A program made the translations under genes and the position numbers. Under the pieces are notes generated by a model, which saw only the letters and a list, made by a program, of their open reading frames with translations, was not told where the DNA came from and ran no database searches. Positions 3,353-21,315 of a DNA stretch of 21,733 nt are shown here, piece by piece (within the stretch, counting starts at the first letter, position 1; each line of letters starts with the position of its first letter). The stretch is from IMG/VR virus record IMGVR_UViG_3300028889_000036, positions 1-21,733 of that record; one strand, 5' to 3'. The DNA is from a virus.

Positions 3353-6300
3353 GTGTCCGAGTGGAATCTCAGTGTGCGCCTTACCGGGCAGGGCTCCGAC
3401 CTCTCCCGCACCCTGCGCCGCCTGTCCACCGACGCCAACGCGGCCTCCCGCAACGTCCAAGCCCTCCGCCGCGACGTCCAGCAGCTCCGCCGTGACGCCC
3501 GCCAGCCCATCCGCATCCGCCTGGACGTCGATGCCGCGCACCTGCGGGCCGACGTCCGTGCCGCGCTCGCCACCGCCGGATCCGGGCAGGGCATCGGTGT
3601 CCGCCTGAACGTGGACGCGGCACACCTGCGCGCGGACGTGTCCACGGCGCTAACCACCGCAGGATCCGGGCAGCGGCTCGGAGTACGCCTGGACGTGGAT
3701 GCCGCGCACCTGCGGGCCGACGTTGCTGCCGCTCTGACCGCTGCCGGGGCAAGGCAGAGCCTCTCCGTGAGGCTGGGGGTGGACGCTGCCCGCCTGCGCG
3801 CGGAAGCCCAAGCCGCAGTCCGGACCGCATCCGCCGACCTGGACATGACGGTCGACCTGAACATCAACAGCCGCGGCATCACCCGCCTCCGGGCCGGAGC
3901 CCGGGACGCCGCGCATTCCCTGAACACGCTCCAGCGGGCCGCCCGTGAAGCGAAGAACGAGCTGGAGGAACTCGAGGGGCGTGCCCTCACCACCGCGGCA
4001 GCGATACGCCGCATCAACACCGCCGCAGGCCGGGCACGGGGCCGCCTGGACGACATGTCATCCAGCACTCGCACGTTCCGTACCGACCTGGATGACCTGG
4101 ACGGCTCCCTCACCCGCGTCGGCGGCAGCCTCAGCGGGCTCCGTGGGCGCGTGGGCGGACTCGGAGGCGGTAGTGGTGGGGGAGGGCTCCGCAGCCTGGG
4201 ACTGGCCGGGCTGCTGCCCATCGCCACCGCCGCCGTCCCCCTGCTGGCCGGCCTGTCCACGAGTCTGGCGCCGCTGCCCGGCGTGTTCGCCGCGGCTACC
4301 GTCCCGGCTGCCGCGTTCGGCATCGCCCTGGCCGGGCAGATCGAACCGCTCTCCGAGGTCGCCGACGCGGAAACCAAGTACCAGGAAGCCGTCCGCGAGC
4401 ACGGCAAAGCCTCCGCGGAGGCGATGGAAGCCCAGCTGAAGTACCAGCAGCTGCTCGCCGACCTGCCCCCCGAAGCGCAGAAGGCCGCCATCGCCCTGTC
4501 CACCCTGAAGGGCAACTTCGGGGACTGGTCGGATCAGATGTCCGGCTTCACCATGCAGCCGCTCACCAAGGGCATCACCGTCCTCGACCAGCTCATCCCC
4601 CGCCTCACCCCGCACGTGAAGACGGCCTCCACCCAGCTGGACCGGCTCGTCACCGTCGCCGGCGGCGCCGTACAGACGCCCGGCTTCGACGCGATGGCGA
4701 ACAAGTTCGCCGACTTCACCGACCGGCAGCTGGACGAGATGACCGATGGCGTCATCCACTTCCTACGCGTCCTGTCCGAGGGCGGGCAGATCACCAGCGG
4801 GCCCCTCGCAGAGTTCATGGCCTACGCCCGGCAGAACGGGCCAGCCGCCCGGGAGGCGCTGTCGGCGATCTCGGATGCGGTGGTGACGTTGATGCGCGCC
4901 GCGGCGGAGGCCGGCCCGACCATGCTCACCCTCGTCACCGCGGCGGCCCGTCTGGTGGCCGCGCTGCCGCCCGAACTGGTCGGGATCATCCTCCAGGTGG
5001 CGACTGCCCTGAAGCTCCTCCAGCTGTCCGGGGCAGGATATGTGGCGCTCGCCGCTGGTCTGGGCCGGGTCCGTACGGCGGTTGCCGCGCTCGGCACCAC
5101 CGCCGCCACCGCCGGTGGTGGCCTCGCCGGTCTACGGGCCGCGTTCCTCGCCCTCGGTACAGCCGCGAAGGCGTCCGTCATCGTCGCCGGTATCGGCCTG
5201 CTGGTCTACGCGCTCTCGGAGCTGTCAGACATGGGCAGGCAGGCCCCGCCGGACGTCGACAAGCTCACCAGCAGCCTGGCCAAGCTGGGGGCGACCGGCA
5301 AGGTCACCGGCGAGGCCGCGAAAGCGTTCGGTAAGGATCTGGGGGACCTGCACGAGAGGGTCCGCGCCCTGACCGACCCGTCCACCGCGGACGACGTACA
5401 GCAGTGGATCGTCAGCCTGGGCGGGCTCGCCAACTGGGACTCCACCCCGGTCAAGGAAGCCAAGGAGAACATCGACGCCATCGACAAGTCCCTGGCCAGC
5501 CTGGTCAAGAACGGCCAGGCCGACATTGCCGCGGAGGCGCTGAAGCGGCTCACGGCGGAGTACGGCAAGGGCGGCCGTGATACTGGCCAGTTCACCAAGC
5601 AGCTGGACGACTACAAGTCGGCGATGGCGGACGCCGCGTTCGAGCAGGAGCTAGCCGCGGCCAGCATGGGCCTGTTCGGGAAGGCCGCGCAGGACACTAC
5701 GGCGAAACTCGCGGCGCAGAAGCAGTCCGCGGACGGCCTGCGACAGGCCATCGTCGCCCTGAACGACGTCAACCGGGCCGCCGGCAGTGCGATGTCCGCG
5801 TTTGAGCAGTCCATCGACGACACCACCAAAGCCATCAAGGACCACGCCAGCGCACTGAAGATGCGCGACGGTGAACTCGACCTCGGATCGCAGAAGGCCC
5901 GCGACGCCGAAAAGGTCCTCTCCGACCTGGCCGCCAACACCGATGCCGCCGCCACGGCCGCCCGGGAGCAGGGCAAGAGCTGGGAGTACGTGTCCGGGAT
6001 CCAGGAACGCGGCCGGCAGGCATTCATCGACGCCGCCGACGCGATGGGCCTGTCGAAGGCGCAGGCTGAAGCGCTCGCCGACTCCTACCTCGGCATCCCC
6101 GACGAGAAGACCACCCGCGTGGAGATGCGGACCGAGGACGCCATCGCCGGCCTTGATGCGGTCATCGCCGCGATCGAGAAGACGCCGGAGAAGAAGTCCG
6201 TGACCGTGGACGCCCTCACCTCGGATGCCGTCAACCTCCTCGAGGGCCTGGGTTACAAGGTGACCGAGCTGAAGGACGGCCGGTTCAAGGTCACTGCCGA

Positions 6301-16814: not shown

Positions 16815-17399
16815 GTGCTCCTCTCCGACCGCCACATCCATGAGGCCATAGCCGCGGGCCGTCTCGGTATCAGCCCCTACGAGCCGGACACCATGCTCCA
16901 ACCCGCATCCATCGACGTCCGCCTCGACGACGAGTTCCTGGTCTTCGAGAATCATCGCTACGGCTTCATCGACCCTGCGCTCGAGCAGGAGGACCTGACC
17001 CGCAGGGTGCGGACCGCCGGCGGGGAGCCGTTCGTGCTGCATCCGGGGGAGTTCGTGCTGGCGTCCACGTTCGAGGAGGTCCGCATGGGTGACGATCTCG
17101 CCGCGAGGCTGGAGGGCAAGAGCTCGCTCGGCCGGCTTGGGCTGGTGACGCATTCCACGGCCGGGTTCATCGACCCCGGCTTCCACGGCCACATCACGCT
17201 GGAGCTTGCGAACCTGTCTGTTCTGCCTCTACTGCTCTGGCCTGGAATGAAGATCGGGCAACTCTGCGTCTTCCAGATGAGCTCGTCAGCAGAGTCGCCC
17301 TATGGTGCAAAAGGGCTCGGCTCCCGCTATCAAGGACAGCGCGGACCCACGGCTTCGCGTTCCTACCTGAACTTTCACCGCACCGTGTTGCCCAGGTAG
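16815..17399 (+). CDS. dcd: dCTP deaminase, probably the bifunctional dCTP deaminase/dUTPase form
   Basis: A 194-residue protein from GTG 16815. The family deaminates dCTP to dUTP for dTMP synthesis. The core motif at residues 102-130, [10 protein letters not shown] followed by [18 protein letters not shown], carries all residues expected from E. coli Dcd: Ser103, Arg107, Ala116 and Glu130. E. coli has His after the Ala, whereas this protein has Gly117 (TAGFIDPGF). That matches the bifunctional actinobacterial and archaeal enzymes that also hydrolyse dUTP to dUMP. The C-terminal SRYQGQRGP motif is present. It may raise the thymidylate supply during phage replication. It is complete and has a leaderless-type promoter. 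Bifunctionality is inferred from the motif. Confidence 0.95.
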
Positions 17400-17403
17400 C
17401 GTG

Positions 17404-17456
17404 TGGACGCGACGGTGCCCCGGACACTAGACCTGTCCGGGGCACCGTCACGTCCA
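17404..17456. terminator. Long bidirectional terminator between dcd and the minus-strand operon
   Basis: A perfect 16-bp stem, GACGGTGCCCCGGACA (17411-17426) with its complement at 17434-17449, closes a 7-base loop. It is extended past one C/A mismatch by TGGACG (17404-17409) with CGTCCA (17451-17456). It lies between the stop of dcd (17399) and the convergent stop at 17462, so it can end both transcripts. Confidence 0.9.
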
Positions 17457-17461
17457 GGAGG

Positions 17462-17776
17462 TCACTCCCCGGCGGTCGGCAGGACCCGGGCCGTTGCCTC
17501 AGTCAGCATCTCCTGGCCGTCCTCCCAGTGCTCGGGCACTCCCTGGATGAACTGGTCCAGGGCGGCGCGCAGGGCGATGGCCTGCTCCAGGTTGAGGTGC
17601 GGGTTCTTCCCGGCCACGGTGGGGCTGTCGTCGATGAACAGCCAGACGTGCGGGCCGCTGGCTGCGGAGGACTCCTGTACGCGGATGGTGTGGCCGTAGC
17701 TGGTCTTGATGGGGCCGCCCGCGTAGGTCAGGAAGCCGCGGTCGTTGGACGGGGTGGGGTTGGTGACGGGACTCAT
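17462..17776 (-). CDS. Hypothetical phage protein, last gene of the minus-strand operon
   Basis: A 104-residue protein from ATG at 17776, with GAGGAG in the junction element. The longer open frame to 17899 runs through the upstream gene. It contains GFLTYAGGPIKTSYGHTIRVQESSA, then GPHVWLFIDDSPT and a helix HLNLEQAIALRAALDQFIQG. The pattern of strands followed by a helix that ends the domain is seen in small Streptomyces phage proteins, but I know no function. A GTG in the element would give a five-residue longer form (MRSTTM...). Confidence 0.75.
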   Translation of the reverse strand: MSPVTNPTPSNDRGFLTYAGGPIKTSYGHTIRVQESSAASGPHVWLFIDDSPTVAGKNPHLNLEQAIALRAALDQFIQGVPEHWEDGQEMLTEATARVLPTAGE

Positions 17777-17797
17777 GGTTGTACTCCTCACTTCTCG
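17774..17797 (-). repeat. Gene-junction element, copy 1
   Basis: On the minus strand this reads CGAGAAGTGAGGAGTACAACC then ATG in two pieces: GAGAAGTGAGGA, which holds the previous stop TGA, and GTACAACC before the start. It joins the genes at 18099-17788 and 17776-17462. The 3' half differs most from the consensus. Confidence 0.8.
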
Positions 17798-18099
17798 ATG
17801 TTGTTGGTTTGGTTCTGGGCCTGGTCCAGCAGTCGCTGCACCCATATGCCGTGCCCCTGGACAGTGGGAGGCTTGGGGAGTTGGAAGTCGCCCCGGCATC
17901 CGCAGGCGCAGCCGTCCATCTTCCTCGCCCTGATCAGCTTCTTGGCCTTCGCCAGCACGACCTTCTCAGGTACCGGCCCCATCGCGGCTTCCAGTGCCGC
18001 GTGCACGTTCCAGCGCATGGCCACCCCAGCCGGGGCTGCTCCGCCGCAGGCGCGGACGACTTCCAGGAACAGTACGTCCGGGATGTCCTTGCACTGCAT
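17788..18099 (-). CDS. Small phage protein with CxCGC motif
   Basis: A 103-residue protein from ATG at 18099, preceded by GAGAGGCGG. It begins MQCKDIPDVLFLEVVRACGG, continues with RWNVHAALEAAMGPVPEKVVLAKAKKLIR and then GCACGCRGDFQLP. The layout (helical body that looks like a winged-helix fold, then a short cysteine-rich strand pair) suggests a small DNA-binding or scaffold protein. This is weak inference. The family recurs in Streptomyces phages as a hypothetical. It ends in EK and its TGA sits in junction copy 1. The gap to the upstream gene is 11 bases. Confidence 0.75.
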   Translation of the reverse strand: MQCKDIPDVLFLEVVRACGGAAPAGVAMRWNVHAALEAAMGPVPEKVVLAKAKKLIRARKMDGCACGCRGDFQLPKPPTVQGHGIWVQRLLDQAQNQTNNIEK

Positions 18100-18110
18100 G
18101 GTGCCGCCTC

Positions 18111-18362
18111 TCACCGCGTGGGCCATTGCTTGGCGAACTGCCGCTCCCGCATCTCCATCATGGTGAGGGTGATGCGCCACCGCTCTGCCGCTTCGAAGGT
18201 GGAGCACAGGCGGGTCAGCCTGATGCCCATGTGGTTGTCGCGGACACCCCACCGCTTGCGCCCCCACCATGTGCGGGTGGTGAAGACGGTGTAGCGGTCC
18301 GGGTGGCAGCGTCGTCCGCAGGCGAACGCCTTGTATGTGCTCGGTTCCTGCTCTTTACTCAC
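18111..18362 (-). CDS. Small basic hypothetical protein
   Basis: An 83-residue protein from GTG at 18362, overlapping the upstream stop as GTGA. The open frame extends to 18620 but only through other genes. It contains KAFACGRRCHPDRYTVFTTRTWWG, then RWGVRDNHMGIRLTRLCSTFEAAERWR and a basic C-terminus. CGRRC plus a later cysteine might bind zinc. The tryptophan/arginine-rich centre suggests contact with nucleic acid, but no family is recognised. Confidence 0.7.
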   Translation of the reverse strand: MSKEQEPSTYKAFACGRRCHPDRYTVFTTRTWWGRKRWGVRDNHMGIRLTRLCSTFEAAERWRITLTMMEMRERQFAKQWPTR

Positions 18363-18565
18363 GAGAGTTCCCCTTCCTGCTTGACGGTACGGGCGTCCGT
18401 GAGTTCGGCGACCTTGGACTCCAGCTCGCCGATCCTGCGGTCCTGTTCGACGATCAGTTCGGCGAGCTTGCTGATGCCCGAGGTCTGGTAGCCGAGGTAG
18501 GAGTCGTCCTCCGTGGGCGTGTTCACGCAGTCCCACAGGATCGACTCGATGTCGCGCTGCTGCAT
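18359..18565 (-). CDS. Small coiled-coil protein
   Basis: A 68-residue protein from ATG at 18565. A GTG at 18580 within the junction element would add MRTPT in frame, and the data cannot decide. It begins MQQRDIESILWDCVNTPTED and ends as a heptad-type helix (LAELIVEQDRRIGELESKVAEL). Its end overlaps the next gene by four bases. No function is recognised. It could be a small oligomerising partner protein. Confidence 0.7.
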   Translation of the reverse strand: MQQRDIESILWDCVNTPTEDDSYLGYQTSGISKLAELIVEQDRRIGELESKVAELTDARTVKQEGELS

Positions 18566-18586
18566 GGTCGGTGTCCTCACTTCTCG
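18563..18586 (-). repeat. Gene-junction element, copy 2
   Basis: Minus-strand GAGAAGTGAGGA + CACCGACC + ATG, the consensus form. It contains the stop TGA of the upstream gene (ending TTEK) and the start of the next. GTG AGG ACA CCG ACC ATG is open in frame. Confidence 0.85.
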
Positions 18587-18795
18587 GTGGTGCGGCCGGC
18601 GGTGACGTGAGCGACGCCAAGGGCGGCTACCTCGGCCCGGCTGTAGTTGTAGCGGAAGCCGTTCGAGGAGACCTGGATCTCACTCGGGCCGATCTTGACG
18701 ATCTGGTACTCGCGGGCTCGGCCCTGGGGGAAGGGGGAGCGGGGAAAGCGGATGTGGTCGCCTTCGCTGAAGGTCACACCGTTGATCTCGAACAT
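18577..18795 (-). CDS. Small beta-rich hypothetical protein
   Basis: A 72-residue protein from ATG at 18795. It reads MFEINGVTFSEGDHIRFPRS, then REYQIVKIGPSEIQVSSNGF and YNYSRAEVAALGVAHV, and ends TTEK. Alternating strands with GD and a final short helix resemble small SH3-like or KOW-like barrels. This is only a shape impression. The open frame to 18933 belongs to the upstream gene. The junction upstream is the shortened copy 3. Confidence 0.7.
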   Translation of the reverse strand: MFEINGVTFSEGDHIRFPRSPFPQGRAREYQIVKIGPSEIQVSSNGFRYNYSRAEVAALGVAHVTAGRTTEK

Positions 18796-18812
18796 CGTGT
18801 CCTCACTTCTCG
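18793..18812 (-). repeat. Gene-junction element, copy 3 (short form)
   Basis: Minus-strand GAGAAGTGAGGACACG followed directly by ATG. It lacks four bases of the consensus 3' part, so the GTG and ATG are not in frame here. It holds the stop of the gene ending ATEK. Confidence 0.85.
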
Positions 18813-18964
18813 GTGGCGCCGCAGCGGTGGCAGCGCGCGGGTTCGGTGACCGGGTAGTCATGCTCGGGGTGGGTGTTCTCGCCGCCGGGGCGGCAGTGGT
18901 CGGTGATCTCGGGGTGGGACTGCTTGGTGCCACCCACGGGCGGCTGGTAGGCGGGGTACGCCAT
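18803..18964 (-). CDS. Very small cysteine/histidine protein
   Basis: A 53-residue protein from ATG at 18964. It starts MAYPAYQPPVGGTKQSHPE, has DHCRPGGENTHPEHDYP, and ends PARCHRCGATEK. The CHRC pair plus the earlier Cys and His residues could bind one zinc. The large open frame to 19618 is a shadow of other genes. Its size makes coding less certain, but it has the junction elements at both ends and a plausible start. Function unknown. Confidence 0.6.
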   Translation of the reverse strand: MAYPAYQPPVGGTKQSHPEITDHCRPGGENTHPEHDYPVTEPARCHRCGATEK

Positions 18965-18985
18965 GGTCGGTGTCCTCACTTCTCG
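18962..18985 (-). repeat. Gene-junction element, copy 4
   Basis: Minus-strand GAGAAGTGAGGA + CACCGACC + ATG, identical to copy 2 in these 23 bases, and holding the stop of the gene ending HNEK. Confidence 0.85.
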
Positions 18986-19317
18986 TTGTGGTCGGCGCGG
19001 ATGACGCTGAGTGCGGCGCGGGCGTAGTCGGCGGGGGTTGCCTTCGGACCGTGGACGCGGGAGACGGCGGACAGCAGGGTCAGGTACAGCGGGTCTGTGT
19101 CGGCCGGGTCCTCCAGCAGTTCGAACGCTGCACTGCGGAGCCGAGCGATGGCGGCGCGGGTCTTCCGGCCGGCCTGGCCTCCGTGGTCGTGTTCGACGAC
19201 GAGTTCGGCGTGGGTGTCGGTGATGTGGGTGACGCGGAGTCGGCGGTCGCGGTCGAACATGTCGGGGGCTCGGTCCCTGTACAACTGTCCCTCGGCTACG
19301 GCAACGGCGGTGCTCAT
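18976..19317 (-). CDS. Hypothetical protein of the minus-strand operon
   Basis: A 113-residue protein from ATG at 19317. It begins MSTAVAVAEGQLYRDRAPDM, has an extended part RRLRVTHITDTHAELVVEHDHGG and a helical part (TRAAIARLRSAAFELLED). It ends YARAALSVIRADHNEK. No family is recognised. The strand-rich start with VVEHDH suggests a small regulatory or binding fold but nothing catalytic is visible. A GTG in the element would add MRKPT in frame. It sits between junction copies 4 and 5. Confidence 0.7.
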   Translation of the reverse strand: MSTAVAVAEGQLYRDRAPDMFDRDRRLRVTHITDTHAELVVEHDHGGQAGRKTRAAIARLRSAAFELLEDPADTDPLYLTLLSAVSRVHGPKATPADYARAALSVIRADHNEK

Positions 19318-19338
19318 GGTCGGTTTCCTCACTTCTCG
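19315..19338 (-). repeat. Gene-junction element, copy 5
   Basis: Minus-strand GAGAAGTGAGGA + AACCGACC + ATG, one base different from copies 2 and 4. It holds the stop of the gene ending VTEK. Confidence 0.85.
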
Positions 19339-19571
19339 GTGACGCGGCCGGCGTCCTGGGCCGCGCGGATCTCGTCGGCGTGCACGGTCTCGAAGTGCCA
19401 CCACCGGCCGCCCTCCCACTGCTCGATCCGGGCAGTGTCGGCGGGGCTACCCTCACCGAGCGAGGCTCGCACCAGGGTGTACGCCTTCGCCTCGCTGGTG
19501 TGGTCGGATTCGGCGCGCACGTCCGGGCCGGTGACGATGACGCGCCACGGCTTACGGGGCTTGGTCGGCAT
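19329..19571 (-). CDS. Small hypothetical protein
   Basis: An 80-residue protein from ATG at 19571, overlapping the upstream HTH gene by 20 bases. AAAGGGGA lies upstream of the start. It reads MPTKPRKPWRVIVTGPDVRA, with EAKAYTLVRASLGEGSPADT, RIEQWEGGRWWHFETVHAD and VTEK at the end. The strand-helix-strand pattern with conserved-looking WW is that of small phage proteins called hypothetical. Nothing catalytic is visible. It is the second gene of the operon. Confidence 0.7.
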   Translation of the reverse strand: MPTKPRKPWRVIVTGPDVRAESDHTSEAKAYTLVRASLGEGSPADTARIEQWEGGRWWHFETVHADEIRAAQDAGRVTEK

Positions 19572-19773
19572 CTGCTGTCCCCTTTCTCGTCTGTCGCTTC
19601 GGGTGCTTCTCGCGCCACTCGTCTACACCCTGCTCTGGCCAGAGGGACGTTCGACCAACCTTCTTGGGCTTTGGGAAGTCCGGTGAGCGGTTGGCCAGGT
19701 TGTACAGGCTCTGGCGGTTGATGCCGAGCCGTTCTGCTGCTTGGTCGGAGGTCAGGTAGCCGGTCAGGTCCAT
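19552..19773 (-). CDS. AlpA/excisionase-like helix-turn-helix protein
   Basis: A 73-residue protein from ATG at 19773, the first gene of the minus-strand operon. It contains YLTSDQAAERLGINRQSLYNLA, a MerR/AlpA-type helix-turn-helix at about residues 6-28. Then comes the wing FPKPKKVGRTSLWPEQGVDEW, typical of the HTH_17 excisionase family. The C-terminus is basic and flexible. It probably binds DNA, either as a recombination directionality factor or as the regulator of the divergent promoters. Its start has no ribosome-binding site but has a -10 at the leaderless distance. The palindromes at 19796-19837 lie just upstream and could be its targets. That link is inferred. Confidence 0.8.
   Translation of the reverse strand: MDLTGYLTSDQAAERLGINRQSLYNLANRSPDFPKPKKVGRTSLWPEQGVDEWREKHPKRQTRKGTADADQAP
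19569..19589 (-). repeat. Diverged gene-junction element
   Basis: Minus-strand CGAGAAAGGGGACAGCAG then ATG. It resembles the five junction elements (GAGAA, then GGGGACA) but lacks the stop codon because the upstream gene runs through it. Confidence 0.45.
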
Positions 19774-19870: not shown

Positions 19871-20485
19871 GTGGCGACAGTGCACGAGCAGATGGCCGCC
19901 AAGCTGATGGACCAGATGCTCTACAGCCCGAGCGCCGCGCAGGTCCTGGCCGAGACCCGTCAGGGCCTGCGCTCAGGTCAGATAGACGCTGCGTACAGGG
20001 ATCGCATCGGTCAGACGCAGCACAGGGCGGCCTACTGGCCTCCGGAGCAGGCCGCCGCCTTCCTGCGGGTACACACCGGGCTGATGTCGGGCGAGTTCGC
20101 CGTGGCACTCCTTGAGGTGGGCGAAGTGCCGGCCGGAGACGCCGACCGAAGCGTCAACGCGGAGCGGCTGGCCCGTCTGCACCCGGCGTTCGCCGCCCGA
20201 CTGGACGCCGAGCAGTCCAATGCAGAAGGCGACGGAGAGGTGCGCTGGTCGGCGTCCGTCCAAGCGCAGCGCTCCACGGGCCGGCCGCTCCCGGATGGCG
20301 CGCCACTCAGCCCGGAATTGAGCGTGTACGCAGTGCCGCCCGGCTGCGTCCCGTTGGAGATCGGCCTGACCTTCCCCAGCCGCACCCTGATGCACCTGCT
20401 CAAGCACGGTGGGGTAGCGCGCTGGCCGTACCAATCCACGGTGGTCGCACTGCTGCTGAACACCCAGACCGAAGGAGTCGCATGA
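19871..20485 (+). CDS. Unrecognised 204-residue protein, first gene of the rightward pair
   Basis: Starts at GTG 19871 with GAGAGGAA at 19855-19862. The frame is open to 19802, but an earlier start would run through the palindromes. The protein begins MATVHEQMAAKLMDQMLYSP and is helical at first (AAQVLAETRQGLRSGQIDAAYRD), continuing with YWPPEQAAAFLRVHTGLMSGEF. A middle acidic part is followed by a beta-type end with SVYAVPPGCVPLEIGLTF and HLLKHGGVARWPYQSTVVALLLN. I recognise no domain, membrane segment or HTH. It is translationally coupled by ATGA to the recombinase-like gene. The pairing and its place in the control region suggest a role in integration or in lysis-lysogeny control. That is inference only. 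Confidence 0.75.
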   Translation: MATVHEQMAAKLMDQMLYSPSAAQVLAETRQGLRSGQIDAAYRDRIGQTQHRAAYWPPEQAAAFLRVHTGLMSGEFAVALLEVGEVPAGDADRSVNAERLARLHPAFAARLDAEQSNAEGDGEVRWSASVQAQRSTGRPLPDGAPLSPELSVYAVPPGCVPLEIGLTFPSRTLMHLLKHGGVARWPYQSTVVALLLNTQTEGVA

Positions 20486-21315
20486 CCACACCCAACACCG
20501 CACGGACCTACGGCACGCAGCGTCGCCAGTTCCAGGCATGGTGCACAGAACGGGGTGTGGAGCCCAGCCCGTGTACAGCGGAGACGTTCACTGGCTACAT
20601 CGACTACCTGATCAACGAGCGCCGGATGTCGCCGAGCACGGTAGAACTCGCCTGGTACGCCATACGCACTTGGCAGCCGCATGGGCACTGGTTCGAGACC
20701 GCCACCGCCCGTGAACTGTGGGACCGCTGGAAGATGGAATGGGCCGCATCCGGTAGAGGCAAGCCCAAGACCGTGCCGATCACCGAAGAAGGACTGCGGG
20801 CGATGCTGGCCACCTGCCAGGACGATCCGGCAGGACTGCGGGACGGCTGCCTGATCACCCTGGCGTGGGGCACTGCCATCCTGCGGTCGGAACTGGCTCG
20901 CTGCATGGTGGACTCGGTTGGACTGATGGACGCCGGTGTACGCCTCCAGATGCCGGGCGCGCAGACGAGCGTCCTGGTGCGCGACAGCCAGGACCCGGTC
21001 ACCAGCGTGGTCCGCTTCACTGCGGGATGGCTGGCTCACCTCCGCCGCAATGGGCGGCACGACGGCTTCCTGTTCCCGCGCTGGGACCGGTGGGGAAACC
21101 TCAGCGAGAAGGCACTAACCGAGCAGACCCTGCACAGGGTCGTATGCGAGCGGGCTGAGGCCGCTGGCCTGGACACATCGGGGATCAGCTTCACCAGCCT
21201 CCGCGTGGGCAGGGCCACGGGGCGCGACACCGTCGCCTTCTCCGAGCCGGACGTGGAGACCTTCGGCCGGTGGCAGCCTCCGGCGTTTGAGGTGCTGTAT
21301 CGGCCTCACGCTTAG
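20482..21315 (+). CDS. Tyrosine recombinase-like protein with degenerate catalytic residues
   Basis: A 277-residue protein from ATG 20482 overlapping the previous stop by ATGA. Residues about 7-70 look like the SAM-like core-binding domain (TYGTQRRQFQAWCTERG, TFTGYIDYLINERRMSPSTVELAW). A catalytic-type domain follows from about 97. The usual G-L-R-x-S-E-L box is here TAILRSEL, so the first catalytic Arg position reads Leu. The HxLR box reads FTSLRVGRATG, with Thr for His but Arg kept. The end has FGRWQPPAFEVLYRPHA, keeping the Trp and a candidate Tyr nucleophile. No Lys is seen in the expected hairpin. It may be an inactive or unusual integrase, or a DNA-binding relative. It is about the length of compact XerC/D-type proteins. 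Confidence 0.75.
   Translation: MTTPNTARTYGTQRRQFQAWCTERGVEPSPCTAETFTGYIDYLINERRMSPSTVELAWYAIRTWQPHGHWFETATARELWDRWKMEWAASGRGKPKTVPITEEGLRAMLATCQDDPAGLRDGCLITLAWGTAILRSELARCMVDSVGLMDAGVRLQMPGAQTSVLVRDSQDPVTSVVRFTAGWLAHLRRNGRHDGFLFPRWDRWGNLSEKALTEQTLHRVVCERAEAAGLDTSGISFTSLRVGRATGRDTVAFSEPDVETFGRWQPPAFEVLYRPHA

Follow-up and report, generated by a model that had tools for sequence, protein, structure and literature searches.

A repeated gene joint as a candidate recombination seam in the small-gene arrays of Streptomyces phage-plasmids

Introduction

Whether phage genomes become mosaic through illegitimate events or through homologous recombination at boundary sequences is an old question. In lambdoid phages, short conserved sequences at gene junctions could mediate the exchange of modules by homologous recombination (PMC3029335, PMC2327257). 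Since most junctions show no boundary sequence, this route has been left without clear cases (PMC3029335). Repeated elements next to phage genes are known from other systems as well. The start-associated sequences (SAS) of cluster K mycobacteriophages, which Pope et al. proposed to serve translation initiation, have the 13-bp consensus GGGATAGGAGCCC, and the 17-bp inverted repeats called ESAS lie upstream of about half of the sites (PMC3203893). For T4-like phages, promoter-stem-loop (PeSL) cassettes have been proposed to allow modular shuffling (Arbiol 2010 and Comeau 2014, as they are cited in PMC4503421).

Here we describe an array of small genes in which nearly every junction has the same sequence, the neighbors on its two sides are almost fully changed from relative to relative, and homology breaks at that sequence, which we call the joint. 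Our literature search found no paper on the joint; the papers retrieved with the core sequence were unrelated by title, none was retrieved for pCQ4, and most subscription journals were outside the scope of the search.

Results

The window, by which we mean the whole stretch of 21,733 nucleotides analyzed, contains an operon of nine small genes on the minus strand, running from 19.77 to 17.40 kb (Table 1). An earlier note on this DNA had reported five near-identical elements at gene junctions, and the joint core GAGAAGTGAGGA indeed has five exact copies in the whole window, all of them on the minus strand and all at gene junctions; the reversed control pattern of GAGAAGTGAGGA had no match in the window. 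With up to 3 mismatches, a 23-mer hit the window three times and 100 shuffled sequences not at all, and a 16-mer hit it five times against a shuffle mean of 0.21. The consensus from the window and 44 other loci is (gaccgcgccac)CGAGAAGTGAGGACACCGACC-ATG. It consists of the last codons ..GAG AAG of the upstream gene, a TGA stop codon overlapping the Shine-Dalgarno (SD)-like GTGAGGA, the spacer CACCGACC and the ATG. The window joints have the GAGGA ribosome-binding core and an ATG 7 or 11 nt past the upstream stop; this gap is 11 nt in 100 of 131 joints, with the SD core 8 nt before the ATG, and ranges from 5 to 12 nt. Because each joint copy contains AAG TGA, five unlike upstream proteins all end in EK, as had been claimed.

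Two further claims of the earlier note hold in part. A GTG is in frame with the ATG in four of the five window copies, the exception being the copy with the 7-nt gap at 18793, but in 28 of 131 joints of the relatives the gap puts the GTG out of frame, so that the second start is incidental and not a general feature. The proposed sixth, diverged copy (joint 0) is real but decayed, and the joint no longer supplies the stop of the upstream gene. Apparently decayed joints are also found at L006 4844-5060 and L057 ~4549, where the stop is lost or shifted and the upstream protein continues through the spacer to terminate at the ATGA of the next start, with the tail DRATEERGHRP.

Table 1. Features of the array region and its borders in the window
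Feature	Position	Strand	Details
Tyrosine-recombinase-like, left border, divergent	20482..21315	+	PF00589 1.9e-4, below cut-off; XerC/D models; syntenic in relatives
HTH_17/excisionase-like, first gene of operon	19552..19773	-	Pfam HTH_17 2.1e-8; PHROG excisionase
Joint 0	19569..19589	-	ACGAGAAAGGGGACAGCAGATG; decayed, stop lost, HTH frame reads ~20 nt through
Gene A, KPxKPWRV family (fam 3)	19329..19571	-	Family in 9 arrays
Joint 1	19315..19338, core 19326-19337	-	One mismatch, AACCGACC
Gene B, DUF6354 (fam 13)	18976..19317	-	PF19881 2.6e-46; 86.1% to L015 joint-to-joint
Joint 2	18962..18985, core 18973-18984	-	Exact consensus
Gene C, MAYxAYxPPVGG family (fam 12)	18803..18964	-	86.4% to pSAM1 joint-to-joint
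Joint 3	18793..18812, core 18800-18811	-	Short form, gap 7: GAGAAGTGAGGACACGATG
Gene D (fam 27)	18577..18795	-	Relative in L029
Joint 4	18563..18586, core 18574-18585	-	Exact consensus
Gene E, small, coiled-coil-like	18359..18565	-	Weak SlyX match, below cut-off
Gene F	18111..18362	-	4-nt overlap with gene E, no joint
Gene G (phrog_5135)	17788..18099	-	7.6e-20
Joint 5	17774..17797, core 17785-17796	-	GAGAAGTGAGGAGTACAACCATG; exact core, diverged spacer, gap 11
Gene H, last gene (phrog_3849)	17462..17776	-	2.1e-11
22-bp perfect hairpin, array end	17405..17455	-	-49.6 kcal/mol, z -8.65
dCTP deaminase, convergent right border	16815..17399	+	TIGR02274 7.3e-61

Differences between related array genes are concentrated at third codon positions (1977, against 996 and 945 at the other two), and the array genes are thus real coding sequences. 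A PADLOC search of the array proteins returned only weak HTH matches. The operon junctions at 18359/18362 and 18097-18113 are without a joint; at the former, the overlap between genes E and F is GTGA, and these two genes may therefore move as one unit. The hairpin behind gene H is a probable terminator, and 34 arrays end in similar hairpins. At the other border, the recombinase-like protein was scored with the general Phage_integrase and Xer models; its Pfam match stops short of the C-terminal end of the profile, and the protein may be degenerate.

The window is a fragment of a Streptomyces phage-plasmid of about 90 kb, with pSAM1 and pCQ4 among its relatives. It matches 33 Streptomyces plasmid records, of which the best among the matches listed are 86 to 94 kb long. 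The joint is present in 24 Streptomyces plasmids, many of them circular and 84 to 94 kb in size, and the annotated joint plasmids examined have capsid, tail, lysin, ParAB and replication genes and hence are phage-plasmids (pSAM1, pCQ4). In the full-size records the place of the array is constant, from an HTH/tyrosine-recombinase-like gene to a terminator adjoining dcd or tail-fibre genes, and a few joint copies lie on other large plasmids (L054, L055 and L057). A search of 50,697 records of cultured phages with a 35-mer of the joint gave no match at this sensitivity. The 16-mer was present in 6 of 393 genomes of the genus Streptomyces, and the 20-mer in 8 contigs of a collection of 84,980 species genomes, where a match in Nitratireductor (L028) was taken as chance; with the joint this rare in genomes, we rejected the idea that it is a chance or host feature. 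The loci were gathered via the joint itself, and joint-rich arrays are consequently over-represented and joint-poor ones under-sampled. We left out L028, L036, L042, L046 and L047 as non-array matches and L021, L064, L065, L010, L030, L031, L034 and L048 because they duplicated, or were parts of, records in the sample. Some phage-plasmids also have a few joints grouped tens of kilobases away from the main array, at about 1.55 kb in G017 (L070) and about 48.2 kb in G008 (L013). In the pCQ4 (L053) annotation, the first array gene (4131-4526) is a Phd/YefM-type antitoxin, and galE lies just past the array.

The earlier note had suggested searching actinophage genomes for the element at junctions of different genes, and in the relatives this is where we found it. 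With the window counted, our non-redundant sample comprised 45 loci, a few of the records giving two each; in these loci, 126 joints are flanked by genes on both sides, and gene families were clustered from trimmed genes with coverage rules. The 126 joints correspond to 122 distinct family-family adjacencies, which means that gene order is almost fully shuffled and the joint constant. Families seen at least three times have nearly as many different neighbors as occurrences; gene C, for example, occurs in three arrays and each time has a different gene before it, as illustrated by the strings f03=f13=f12=f27=... in the window, f03=f24~f33~f01=f12=f10=f16 in pSAM1 and f00=f04=f12=f17 in L009. 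The earlier note had also held that lack of conservation at equivalent junctions in relatives would speak against its proposal. The element is conserved in the relatives, though not at equivalent junctions; since an exchange model predicts conservation of the element and not of the junction, that comparison is the wrong test.

Homology between arrays also breaks at the joint. The nucleotide homology tracts inside arrays have 202 ends, and 146 of these lie in the joint of both loci; with rotated joint positions as the null, the mean was 8.3 and the maximum 24 (the tract pairs are not independent). For tracts of at least 90% identity, the count is 23 of 25 ends. Twenty-five tracts span from joint to joint, and their measurable flanks have identities of 0.48 to 0.61, at or close to those of unrelated stretches, compared with a mean of 0.53 and a 95% point of 0.59 for unrelated sequences. 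The best case is a 290-nt tract of 99.7% identity between L007 and L009, which begins between the C and the GAGAAG of the joint, ends just before the next start and lies between neighbors that are unrelated in the two loci. Two window genes have joint-to-joint partners of this kind, gene B in L015 and gene C in pSAM1. Spacer variants showed no difference in linkage to the upstream and downstream families (0.83/0.82/0.81) and therefore gave no means of locating the crossover.

Conservation of the joint is at the level of DNA. The spacer is exact in 51 of 97 cases, with a mean pairwise identity of 0.81 compared with 0.33 for 123 other pSAM1 starts, and it is still 79 to 96% conserved per base after the best joint of each locus is removed. 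In the coding tail, synonymous sites are frozen (ACC 96% versus 66%, CGC 85% versus 48%) and the encoded residues vary. EK tails are found in 6 of 7 cases, compared with none of 123 pSAM1 genes outside the array. They are also present in 10 of the 34 array-final genes of hairpin-terminated arrays, and in L020 and L025 TGAGGACACC persists where no further gene follows. The frozen synonymous codons, together with final genes that keep the 5' half with nothing to start, show that the constraint acts on DNA. In most of the EK-ending final genes the stop half is kept and the SD half decayed, which implies that elsewhere the SD half is maintained by selection for starting a gene. The tail half of the joint travels with the preceding gene.

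Among the full-size records, four encode RecT, seven Rad52 (one below the cut-off) and two ERF. These sets do not overlap, so that 13 of 25 full-size records have an annealing protein; about half yielded no known annealing protein, and in the window fragment that region is not included. The annealing-protein genes are about 5 to 9 kb from the array in pSAM1 and pCQ4. The Bet/RecT gene of pSAM1 (52972-54204) and the Rad52 gene of pCQ4 (67011-67865) occupy a similar place, adjoining DNA cytosine methyltransferases.

Discussion

Our analysis of sequences makes it likely that the joint combines a translational-coupling signal with a homologous-recombination seam in a variable small-gene array of Streptomyces phage-plasmids. 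Its 5' half encodes the last residues of the upstream gene (..xTEK) and the stop, and its 3' half gives the next gene an RBS (GTGAGGA) and the fixed spacer up to the start codon. Because the joint supplies both, every gene is flanked by the same direct repeat of about 20 to 35 bp, which would be common to all members of the phage-plasmid pool. When two phage-plasmids meet in one cell, annealing or strand exchange between these repeats could swap, insert or delete whole genes in register, and the product would be an intact, translationally coupled operon with stop, RBS and start restored. We hypothesize that the crossovers take place inside the joint by homologous recombination, an exchange visible here through its products, and that phage RecT, Rad52 or ERF proteins and/or host RecA probably perform it. 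The earlier note had proposed that such a joint could let small genes be exchanged by homologous recombination; the shuffled neighbors, the tracts ending in the joint, the DNA-level constraint and the annealing-protein genes of about half of the full-size records together strongly support this proposal. Tuning of reinitiation, the other role that it had suggested, is a possible second function of a joint that presumably couples translation. Published minimal lengths of homology, about 30 bp for RecA or Red and as little as 5 to 13 bp for rare joining by RecET (PMC2327257), are on the side of recombination at the joint. What counts against it is that strict identity extends over 20 to 24 bp, a length that falls short of, or comes close to, the minimum at which RecA pairs efficiently.

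Inside identical repeats no breakpoint can be located to a single base, which leaves the selection of illegitimate events at gene boundaries as an alternative to be weighed. One rival explanation is purely translational: a strong coupling or reinitiation signal made of stop, SD and spacer is kept or copied, and shuffling is a separate process of illegitimate recombination at gene ends. The uniform distance between SD core and ATG, the prevailing 11-nt gap and the decay of the SD half where no gene follows are what it would lead us to expect. It does not account for the identity upstream of the stop (GAGAAG and the frozen ACC and CGC) or for EK tails on last genes, and illegitimate events would yield truncated or double joints, whereas single, in-register joints are the rule. 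We therefore regard it as rather unlikely. Selection of the (A/T)TEK tail in the protein, for example for stability, might be suspected from the five unlike EK proteins of the window and the EK-ending last genes. We rejected EK as a protein-level signal on the evidence of codon freezing, since it is the synonymous codons that are constant and the residues that vary; conservation moreover runs past the stop into the spacer, EK ends are absent from the other pSAM1 proteins, and we consider this explanation extremely improbable.

The attC sites of integrons are imperfect inverted repeats that fold on one strand. An integron-like, site-specific cassette system, with the joint as the substrate of the divergent tyrosine recombinase next to the array, is suggested by the presence of tyrosine-recombinase genes in 27 of 28 records, by their usual location in full-size phage-plasmids (2 to 5 kb upstream of the array, in opposite orientation) and by cassettes that are single genes in one orientation. 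However, the joint and its edges have neither inverted repeats nor a fold (z 0.2 to 0.5), the spacer varies in length, and there is no attI-like copy near the recombinase, the best upstream match being at most 14/20, the same as in control regions. The Pfam score of the window recombinase is under the cut-off, and at the recombinase end, instead of the most variable families, we see those that recur most often as first genes. We judge such a system very unlikely, and hold equally little expectation of a dedicated exchange system, an integron-like gene-capture array whose joint, stop codon, RBS and spacer in one, would be recognized directly as a recombination site by the syntenic tyrosine recombinase or by a different phage-encoded factor. 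Homologous recombination at the joint thus is our preferred explanation: with the joint near-constant and the genes between shuffled almost freely, it is very likely a shared seam for swapping single genes with the operon unbroken.

The joint would then be a natural design for leaving an operon readable whichever genes are swapped. It is also a signature for finding accessory small-gene arrays of Streptomyces phage-plasmids, and circular members such as pSAM1 offer a tractable system for a direct test.

How does the joint relate to the described systems? The earlier note had likened it to the SAS of cluster K phages. The likeness is functional: both are repeated in one orientation in a non-structural region, just upstream of the ATG of unrelated genes, contain an SD-like AGGA and are rare or absent in host genomes (PMC3203893). 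The consensus sequences are unrelated and have only AGGA in common, the joint lacks the inverted repeats of the ESAS (PMC3203893), and its sequence takes in the stop, as the note had remarked, together with the coding tail of the upstream gene, and reaches the ATG. With neither consensus nor ESAS shared, the joint is not a member of the cluster K SAS. The PeSL elements, as described in the citing source, are likewise short regulatory intergenic cassettes proposed to mediate modular shuffling, but they are transcriptional (promoter/terminator), whereas the joint is translational and partly coding; the joint does not fold, and a search for sigma-70-type promoters, by which Streptomyces promoters may be missed, found none in the region. 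With integron arrays the locus shares promoterless small genes, a divergent tyrosine recombinase alongside and one repeat per gene; it differs in having neither an attC fold nor an attI-like site and in a joint that carries stop and RBS.

The closest match is with the boundary sequences of lambdoid phages. As judged from sequence comparison, the joint is a boundary sequence in the descriptive sense, in that the same short sequence stands between different gene pairs (122 adjacencies at 126 joints) and homology between relatives breaks there (146 of 202 ends; null mean 8.3), and, like those conserved junction sequences, it could mediate exchange by homologous recombination. Unlike them, one sequence serves nearly all junctions of the array, the units are single small genes, and the signals for translation are part of the sequence itself.
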